NCBI GenBank assembly: GCA_020027965.1
Contig: JAHRHE010000009.1
Location: forward strand, 1-41,681
Source: Nitrospirota bacterium
GTDB taxonomy: Bacteria; Nitrospirota; Nitrospiria; Nitrospirales; Nitrospiraceae
DNA length: 41,681 bases
Direction: 5' to 3'
Positions 632-3,096 of the stretch are shown here, piece by piece (position 1 is the stretch's first letter; each line of letters starts with the position of its first letter). The position numbers were made by a program, and so were the translations under genes. The notes beneath the pieces are model-generated. The model was given only the letters and a program-made list of their open reading frames with translations. It was not told the DNA's origin and did no database searches.

Positions 632-886
632 GCCAGTATAGCAATCCGGCACCCGGAGTTCTATCAAGGCGGTGACCCGGTGCGCGAGCCGGTCGTCCGG
701 AAGGCTTCCGTGGAGGGTCGCTCCCGGACATCCGTCAGCCCTGTGGGCGAGAGAGCCTTGCGCCCATTGACCCAGTCCTTTACTGTCTCTGTCGCTTTGA
801 GCTCCGCTTGCCTCATCTGATGGCCTTGGTGTAGGCTTCCCGCACGGAGGCCCTTGGCCAAAGTCAGGGGCGAGGAGGCATCCCCC

Positions 887-1600
887 ATGGAAGCCGCGCC
901 TGCTCCCTTTCTCGCCTCGTTGGTGAATGAACTGGAACGCCATCCCGTCAATTCCAATGCGTTCTTCGAGACCTTTCACGTCAGGGTGCTGACGCGAGCG
1001 CAGCTCAGGACCTTTGTTCGGCAGTATCACTATTTCTGCAAGCATTTTGTCAAGCTGCTGGAAGGGCTCCTGTACCGAACGCCGGTGGAGCAGGTAGACA
1101 TGCGCAGCGAGCTCATCAAGACCCTGCATTCAGAGCTGGGCAGCGGAAATCCGCAGCGAGCTCACATCAGACTCCTGAACAAGTTTGCGAAGTCGCTGGA
1201 TCTGGATGAAGTGGATTTGGACCGCACGGTGCCGATCCCCGAGGTGGTCGCGTACCTCGGGCTGCTCCACCGTCTGTTCATCGAATCGGACCATCTGACC
1301 GCGCTGGGGGCCGAAATGGCCGTGGAGGTCACCGCTGGGTCGGAGTTCCGCTATCTCTACCCTGGGCTGAGGCAATACTCAGCTTTTAATGAAGATGAGC
1401 TACTATTCTTCAAGTTACACTTGAATGAAGAGCAATGCCACAGCGCCTGGCTCATCGATGCTGTGCAGCGGACTGCGAGGACCCGGGACGAGTATGACAG
1501 GGTGGCAGCCGGAGCACGAGAGACCGCCGACGGCTGGCAGCAGTTCTGGAGTGGCTTGTACCGCGAAGTCTTCGAGTCCGCCGGGCTGAGAAGAGAATGA
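887..1600 (+). CDS. Heme-oxygenase-fold diiron oxidase/oxygenase (PqqC/CADD-like, HDO family)
   Basis: This 237-residue protein has the size and helix pattern of the TenA/PqqC/heme-oxygenase-like fold and carries the ligand pattern of heme-oxygenase-like diiron enzymes. The pattern is Glu83 (HSELGSG), His93 (RAHIRLL), Glu147 (AVEV), then His178-x3-Glu182-x2-His185 in HLNEEQCH. In CADD-type enzymes the middle position of that last motif is Asp; here it is Glu. Family members use a nonheme diiron centre and O2 for oxidative decarboxylation, N-oxygenation or C-C cleavage; the substrate here cannot be read from the sequence. An upstream TTG at 854 is in frame, but the ATG at 887 is preferred because GAGGAGG lies 8 bases before it. 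The stop overlaps the start of the RRE-methyltransferase gene (ATGA), implying the two act together. Fold and metal class are fairly sure; function is unknown. Confidence 0.85.
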   Translation: MEAAPAPFLASLVNELERHPVNSNAFFETFHVRVLTRAQLRTFVRQYHYFCKHFVKLLEGLLYRTPVEQVDMRSELIKTLHSELGSGNPQRAHIRLLNKFAKSLDLDEVDLDRTVPIPEVVAYLGLLHRLFIESDHLTALGAEMAVEVTAGSEFRYLYPGLRQYSAFNEDELLFFKLHLNEEQCHSAWLIDAVQRTARTRDEYDRVAAGARETADGWQQFWSGLYREVFESAGLRRE

Positions 1601-3096
1601 TCGGGGGAAACATGAAGCCGACTGCGGCACTCCATGAGCCGCTTCAGTTGACCGAGGAAGTTCTTACGCTACGCGCCTGGCGGATGCCGGACATGGTCGT
1701 GTACCAGCACGCGCCTGACGAGTGGTGGCTGACGCCCTTGGATGATGACCTGCCCATCATTCGGCTCAACCAGGTGGGAGTAGAGCTCCTGGCCGCCCTC
1801 GACGGCCATGTCACCGTGGCAGCGTTGCTGGAACGCTTTGGCAACCGGGTGTGCGGCCCCGATGGCCAGTCCGGCCGCTGGCATCTGGAACGCTGGCCCC
1901 AACCGAGGTATTCCCTCTGTTACTTCGGCGCCCAACCGCCGACGACCAACCAGCATGGCGCTAAGTGGGACCTCCTGCTCCAGCAAGTGCGAGAGGGATG
2001 GTCCGGGAACCAGGGCTTCGAAGGCGAGAAACACCTGTCGGAATTCCACCTGAGGGAGATCACCAAACGCGAGAGCCACTTTGATACGATCGAGACGACG
2101 GTCTCACATCTCTTCCGCGAACCGAGCGAAGTTTTGCAGGGCCTGACTTATGGGCGCCTGCTGGCCAGACGAATGCGCCAACTCGGGTGGTGGGGCTCCA
2201 GAACGCAACAGATCCTTGAGGTCGGAGGCGGCCTGGGGTACGTGGCCCGTGAGATCGCCAGTGAGCTATCTCCGGCCGAACGACAGGGCCTCCGGTACCT
2301 CTGCCTCGACATCACCAAGCCCTTCCTCCACTCCCAGTTGGGGCTCGCCCGGGAAGCCGGTTGGAACAGCGGTGGAATGCAGGCGAACGCGGAATGGCTA
2401 CCCCTGCGCGATGCAAGCATTGACCTCGTCATCGACAATGAGAACCTGGCGGATATGACGCCCGTGCAGTTGCAACGGGACGAAGTGAAGTCCAACAGGG
2501 GTCACAACCCGCTGCATCAGGAAGCAGTGGATTGGATTCGTCGCATGCGGTTGCCACTGGGGAATGACCTGCCGGCGGAGTTCATTTTCAACCTCGGGCC
2601 GATCCGCTTTCTCTCGGAATTGTGGCGGGTGCTGAGACCGGGCGGGCGGGCGATCCTGGTCGAATTCGGAATCGAGGACGGCTGGTCGGCCCCGGTCAAG
2701 TTGCCGGGACATACCGAATACGAGGTCCAGTACACGCACCTCCGGCATGCGGCTCGTTGGCTCGGCTTCAAGGACGAGTACTACCCGTTGCCGAAGTTCC
2801 TGGTGATCCGGCCCGATACCCGCGTGCTTTGCACCGGAGCGGCCTATACGATCCAGCGCATTTGCGCCGGGCTGGGCAGGTCTTTCCCGATCCGGGCGTA
2901 CACGGAGGCAGAGTTACATCACACCTTAGGGGACCTCGTTCCGAAGCTCCTGGGTTGTCACTATCATGAGGTGAGTGATCCGGCTTGGTTCGGGCTTTGG
3001 GATTTCAAGGTGTTGCTGCTGGAGAAGCCGGGAGGCGTCTCGCGGCCTGCCTTCAGTGAGACCAAGGGATTCCGCTGGTACGCGCACGGACGATGA
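1597..3096 (+). CDS. PqqD-like (RRE) domain fused to class I SAM methyltransferase
   Basis: The protein has 499 residues. Residues ~40-85 resemble the PqqD winged-helix fold, the RiPP recognition element that binds peptide leaders: a beta hairpin, then RLNQVGVELLAALDG and VAALLERFG. A linker of ~100 residues follows, then a Rossmann methyltransferase with motif I ILEVGGGLGY at 206-215, the acidic ribose-binding strand LCLDIT, and a post-motif region LRPGGRAILVEFG. The last ~100 residues look like a substrate-specific cap. The ATG at 1597 overlaps the preceding stop; a second ATG at 1612 has GGGGGA just upstream and is an equally fair start. Pairing with an oxidase of the PqqC fold recalls PqqC-PqqD, so a peptide or peptide-derived substrate is possible. 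No precursor peptide gene is visible next to it. The methyltransferase call is sure; the RRE call is good but rests on pattern only. Confidence 0.8.
   Translation: MIGGNMKPTAALHEPLQLTEEVLTLRAWRMPDMVVYQHAPDEWWLTPLDDDLPIIRLNQVGVELLAALDGHVTVAALLERFGNRVCGPDGQSGRWHLERWPQPRYSLCYFGAQPPTTNQHGAKWDLLLQQVREGWSGNQGFEGEKHLSEFHLREITKRESHFDTIETTVSHLFREPSEVLQGLTYGRLLARRMRQLGWWGSRTQQILEVGGGLGYVAREIASELSPAERQGLRYLCLDITKPFLHSQLGLAREAGWNSGGMQANAEWLPLRDASIDLVIDNENLADMTPVQLQRDEVKSNRGHNPLHQEAVDWIRRMRLPLGNDLPAEFIFNLGPIRFLSELWRVLRPGGRAILVEFGIEDGWSAPVKLPGHTEYEVQYTHLRHAARWLGFKDEYYPLPKFLVIRPDTRVLCTGAAYTIQRICAGLGRSFPIRAYTEAELHHTLGDLVPKLLGCHYHEVSDPAWFGLWDFKVLLLEKPGGVSRPAFSETKGFRWYAHGR

Follow-up and report, generated by a model that had tools for sequence, protein, structure and literature searches.

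What joins an HDO-type enzyme to a methyltransferase encoded directly behind it in a Nitrospirota bacterium, and do the two act on the same molecule? The window, the whole stretch of DNA that was analysed, comprises 41,681 nucleotides and belongs to an assembly of 3.6 Mb in 263 contigs with a completeness of 97%. The first gene, referred to here as HDO, lies at 887..1600 on the + strand and encodes 237 aa from the ATG at 887. The second, MT, lies at 1597..3096 on the + strand and encodes a class I SAM-dependent methyltransferase, extended at its N-terminus, of 499 or 494 aa. Both open reading frames, of 237 and 499 aa, are as the first-pass annotation had given them, together with a four-base overlap between the genes. 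This overlap needs the ATG at 1597 and is probably not real, since the reading frames of almost all the family orthologues examined begin at the codon matching Met6. Judging from these orthologues, the conserved start is probably ATG 1612, which encodes Met6 in the window and has GGGGGA ahead of it; the product would be 494 aa rather than 499 aa, with a gap of 11 bp between HDO and MT. As first noted, no PQQ, radical-SAM or precursor gene adjoins the pair in the list of open reading frames or in the neighbourhood checks, in which visual inspection supplied the functions of neighbouring genes that had no profile search. The intergenic region at 497-640 contains repeated CCTGAGC..GTCGAAGGG-type units, resembling REP-like elements. 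A literature search found no paper on the HDO-MT pair in Nitrospira.

The assignment of the first protein to the HDO enzymes was borne out by a match to Pfam Haem_oxygenas_2 (PF14518) with E=5.7e-27. Its AlphaFold model (pLDDT 93.2) showed a heme-oxygenase-like, seven-helix predicted fold with a Foldseek probability of 1.00 to CADD, BesC, HrmI and UndA, the closest PDB folds being CADD 1rcw and BesC 7twa (E about 1e-8). The candidate metal ligands are E83 (position 1133, + strand), H93 (1163), E147 (1325), H178 (1418), E182 (1430) and H185 (1439). All six were invariant in 18 orthologues and again in a second set of 17, which included two unlinked copies, and they aligned with E81, H88, E142, H174, D178 and H181 of CADD (CADD numbering as read off the printed HDO-CADD alignment), so that the ligands named at first do correspond to those of HDO enzymes. 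By sequence, HDO carries the complete 3H/3C dimetal ligand set described for the superfamily (PMC13108848). In CADD, the self-sacrificed residues are Tyr27 and Lys152 (PMC11965152). Their counterparts are Phe27 and Leu/Phe157 in HDO and 17 orthologues; with the sacrificial Tyr and Lys missing from all HDO orthologues checked, HDO is therefore not a self-sacrificing pABA synthase. With the paired HDO, the superfamily gains an uncharacterised subfamily; a reaction is known for only about a dozen of the superfamily's members (PMC13108848).

The same genome encodes a further HDO with about 30% identity to the first (L090:5469-6194, contig C251). It sits with acyl-CoA ligase, thiolase and hydroxyacyl-CoA dehydrogenase genes, divergent from 4-hydroxyphenylpyruvate dioxygenase-like and homogentisate dioxygenase-like genes (all by eye). 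Where CADD has its sacrificial Tyr27 it likewise carries a Tyr, but a counterpart of Lys152 is apparently missing.

The second protein scored 36.9 bits against Pfam Methyltransf_11 (cut-off 21.2), in agreement with its first description as a SAM methyltransferase. Pfam, the alignment and fold matches place the SAM-binding core at 2200..2670 on the + strand (residues 202-358). A Rossmann core and the glycine-rich ExGxGxG motif are present, as in class I SAM methyltransferases, and E208, G210, G212, G214, D238 and the motif DNENxADMTP are invariant. Over 34 orthologues, the mean column identity of MT was 74%.

Methyl-plastoquinone synthesis needs ring hydroxylation and methylation, the two kinds of reaction which such a pair might supply. 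Nitrospira does use methyl-plastoquinones (PMC12324825). A role for MT and HDO in this biosynthesis is nevertheless very improbable, as a separate, true MpqE is encoded elsewhere in the same genome (contig C50) and, being more widely distributed, in many families of the phylum without MT; against the MpqE model (NCBIfam NF052510) MT reached 15 bits, with a cut-off of 335.

Ahead of the core, a candidate PqqD/winged-helix-like segment was located at 1699..1839 on the + strand (residues 35-81) by sub-threshold profile matches and hhalign. The PqqD profile gave 13.7 bits with the whole protein and 16.6 bits with a 66-aa slice, its cut-off being 23.4, and the NCBIfam ScmD, PqqD and ApyI models matched residues 35-81 at E 0.02-0.05. 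Altogether, four PqqD/RRE-type models met one common segment of 28-51 residues at E 0.01-0.05, below their curated cut-offs; as all fall on one segment, these matches are not independent. PKMT_2nd, the winged helix of protein-lysine methyltransferases, matched the segment about equally (E 0.024). When the MT N-terminus was compared by hhalign with the true PqqDs of the class, the probability was low (12-35% over 27 columns), and the score exceeded those of 30 column-shuffled controls. A search of the PDB with the N-terminal profile gave nothing beyond ankyrin-type chance matches. The structural model shows a beta-beta-beta-alpha-alpha order with no confident third helix; its confidence is low (pLDDT mostly 25-76) because the AlphaFold alignment was shallow, with 34 rows, none of them below 57% identity to the window. 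The PqqD-like domain proposed at first thus keeps several PqqD-type matches at residues 35-81, all of them under curated cut-offs, and the balance of this sequence evidence leans towards a putative PqqD-type winged helix.

The same PKMT match, together with MidA structures among the best fold matches of MT, raises the alternative that MT methylates proteins, as a MidA/NDUFAF7-like or PKMT-like enzyme whose target could for example be a respiratory complex, and that HDO is a modifier in its own right. In hhalign, the comparison of MT with MidA gave 66% over 167 columns and brought the NE..L...P motif into register, whereas MidA against three other methyltransferase sets stayed below 1%. Pfam Methyltransf_28 (MidA/NDUFAF7) matched 5 of the 34 MT members (best E=0.0018). 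However, UbiE-like and other generic methyltransferase profiles outscored MidA against MT, and canonical MidA is encoded elsewhere in the MT-carrying genomes. We did not retain MT as a MidA, since the likeness is distant and the canonical enzyme is also present, and the protein methyltransferase alternative as a whole is improbable.

MT was found in 163 of the 175 genomes of the family, and in 113 of the 114 good ones. In a sample of 396 genomes from the phylum, all strong matches fell in three families (f1, f2 and f3) of one order. In a collection spanning about 85,000 species there were 185 relatives, and the best 80 of these were almost all labelled Nitrospira or Nitrospirota, with one labelled Nitrosospira. 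Close orthologues of HDO (E below 1e-75) were present in 24 genomes of the phylum sample, all with MT. In 22 of them, from three families, HDO stands immediately upstream of MT on the same strand, and the pair is indeed kept together in related genomes, as the first-pass annotation had supposed; in the other two (G008 and G010) it is unlinked to MT. Within the family MT mostly occurs without HDO, Nitrospira moscoviensis and N. defluvii being among these cases, and in the second family MT without a close HDO was found in four genera. HDO is absent or moved in several lineages; as the genomes are mostly metagenome-assembled, the absence of a gene from any one of them may be a gap.

On the MT tree, rows with a linked HDO appear in each of the three families. 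Explaining where HDO is present and where it is absent takes 7 changes on this tree, of which well-supported branches force at least 5; the tree cannot separate gain from loss. HDO and MT distances are correlated (r=0.74, Mantel 0 of 2000). MT of the window shares 58-62% identity with its orthologues in the second family, compared with 48-56% for the neighbouring RecG and Ppx.

In the lineages without HDO, the gene upstream of MT encodes a cupredoxin, a TehB-like methyltransferase or a double zinc-finger-like protein, none of which is a plausible oxygenase substitute. A secreted cupredoxin-like protein precedes MT in eight loci of HDO-less family members (L074, L075, L076, L077, L078, L079, L080 and L081). 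Upstream of HDO, three loci of the second family (L035, L038 and L046) have HigBA-like toxin-antitoxin genes (by eye).

The 3′ end of MT is repeated in Nitrospira genomes G127, G130, G120, G128, G075 and G059 (L256, L257, L258, L259, L261 and L262, respectively). There, one to three further copies of the last 110-400 bp of the gene follow downstream, most of them at 82-95% identity, and the genes that separate the copies are toxin-antitoxin-like (HigBA, PIN/VapBC), nucleotidyltransferase or SNF2/SWIM-like (by eye). The MT 3′ end is apparently an insertion hot spot which copies the 3′ end of the gene; no recombinase was seen at these repeats in the stretches read.

Upstream of the pair, a promoter-like element was identified at 808..837 on the + strand, TTGCCT-N16-TG-TAGGCT (TTGC-N18-TGTAGGCT), which by its sequence resembles an extended -10 promoter. 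Looser or related forms precede HDO in 19 of 26 HDO loci, where shuffles expect 0.01, and of 127 HDO-free loci, a set in which the same genome may count more than once, 105 have related elements upstream of MT; in all, the element was found at 90 distinct loci, with either the whole operon or MT alone behind it. It stands before HDO in the lineages that have HDO and directly before MT elsewhere. The exact pattern matched 8 times in 12 whole genomes, 6 of them at the HDO-MT operon; as the reversed control pattern gave 9 matches, the number of matches is at the background level and the information lies in their position alone. An Rfam search found no riboswitch upstream of HDO-MT, and we set the riboswitch reading aside, taking the conserved upstream stretch as the promoter-like element.

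Since HDO is found in three families, its distances follow those of MT and the promoter-like element is arranged in this way, the simplest reading of these sequence data is that HDO-MT is an ancestral Nitrospirales pair from which HDO may have been lost repeatedly. Operon linkage of HDO and MT is not proof of a common pathway, and it is possible, if on the doubtful side, that the two are only co-transcribed, MT having a core role of its own and HDO an unrelated one, with the common promoter keeping them together. MT is far commoner than HDO, HDO persists unlinked in two genomes and other, unrelated genes lie upstream of MT in other lineages, all of which would fit; against this, a close HDO was never seen without MT in the sample, and the adjacency extends over three families.

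We favour, with a probability of roughly 0.45, an ancestral operon of the Nitrospirales: MT, its core member, would act on a conserved target and HDO, as an optional partner, would oxidise the same molecule. One conserved promoter-like element would drive both genes, which run in the same direction. The conserved Nitrospirales target that MT would methylate could be a small molecule; it could also be a peptide or protein, which the winged-helix-like N-terminal domain of MT may hold. HDO would oxidise the molecule of MT using O2 and a two-metal site. Because MT persists without HDO, methylation cannot strictly need it; HDO would thus be an alternative source of the molecule of MT, a later step on it, or unrelated. 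Within the favoured operon reading, HDO might offer an alternative O2-dependent route to the methyl acceptor, or perhaps modify the molecule of MT later on. A more specific version, in which the product would be a Nitrospirales-specific cofactor or modified peptide or protein of importance to the order, made by an MT with a built-in PqqD-like binding domain and finished in several lineages by HDO in an O2-dependent step, is unlikely. As a core gene better conserved than RecG, MT marks an order-specific process, and the lineages without HDO are a built-in comparison for product analysis.

The first interpretation of the locus had been the tailoring of a leader-bound peptide or a small acid; in its peptide form, the RRE of MT would bind the leader of a RiPP precursor while HDO oxidises and MT methylates the peptide. 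Two of the three checks proposed for it came out in its favour, as the ligands align with those of HDO enzymes and the pair is conserved. For the RiPP part, there are the matches of PqqD/RRE-type models under their cut-offs at residues 35-81 and a weak profile match of MT to the RiPP methyltransferase LahSB (E=2e-4). However, the neighbourhood check found no conserved short peptide or precursor-like ORF by the pair, and MT is distributed as a core gene, near-universal in the order and usually without the oxygenase, which is not how tailoring enzymes of natural-product clusters are spread; this weakens the RiPP reading and leaves it quite unlikely. Precursor candidates near the operon were rejected as antisense shadows of cupredoxin or Ppx genes, or noise; the search covered the surroundings of the operon, and a distant precursor is possible. 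True PqqD/radical-SAM clusters are found on other contigs, and they are missing from nearly all second-family genomes listed, though the pair or MT is present there. In many Nitrospira genomes a distance of 9-30 kb separates MT from true PqqD genes. We did not accept a linkage between them and took this proximity as shared synteny, because many unrelated genes intervene and nearly none is found in the second family. Another contig of the window's own genome (C260, locus L205) carries a RiPP-like cluster with several methyltransferases, two UPF0489-like/TPR proteins, true PqqD domains and two radical-SAM proteins.

Compared with known systems, MT shares the SAM-binding core of UbiE/BioC-type small-molecule methyltransferases, but it has about 190 extra N-terminal residues and scored 15-21 bits against their models (cut-offs about 160-380). 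With the MidA/NDUFAF7 protein arginine methyltransferases (PMC3829151) it shares a fold match and a similar NE..L...P motif, whereas by profile most MT rows are not members of that family. The likeness of residues 35-81 to PqqD stays below cut-off in every match. PqqC has its fold in common with HDO and ranked lower among the fold matches; unlike PqqC/PqqD, the pair has no adjoining PQQ genes and, by sequence, HDO has a dimetal ligand set. BesC, a 4-chloro-allylglycine synthase, shares the HDO fold at ~20% identity (TM-score about 0.82), whereas HDO reached 46 bits against its NCBIfam model (cut-off 500), lacks bes-type neighbours and, unlike BesC, is partnered by a methyltransferase. The best fold and profile matches of HDO are the pABA synthases CADD (C. 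trachomatis) and NePabS (N. europaea); HDO scored 48 bits against the CADD family cut-off of 200 (NCBIfam) and has Glu in place of CADD D178, and it has the six-ligand plan in common with both.
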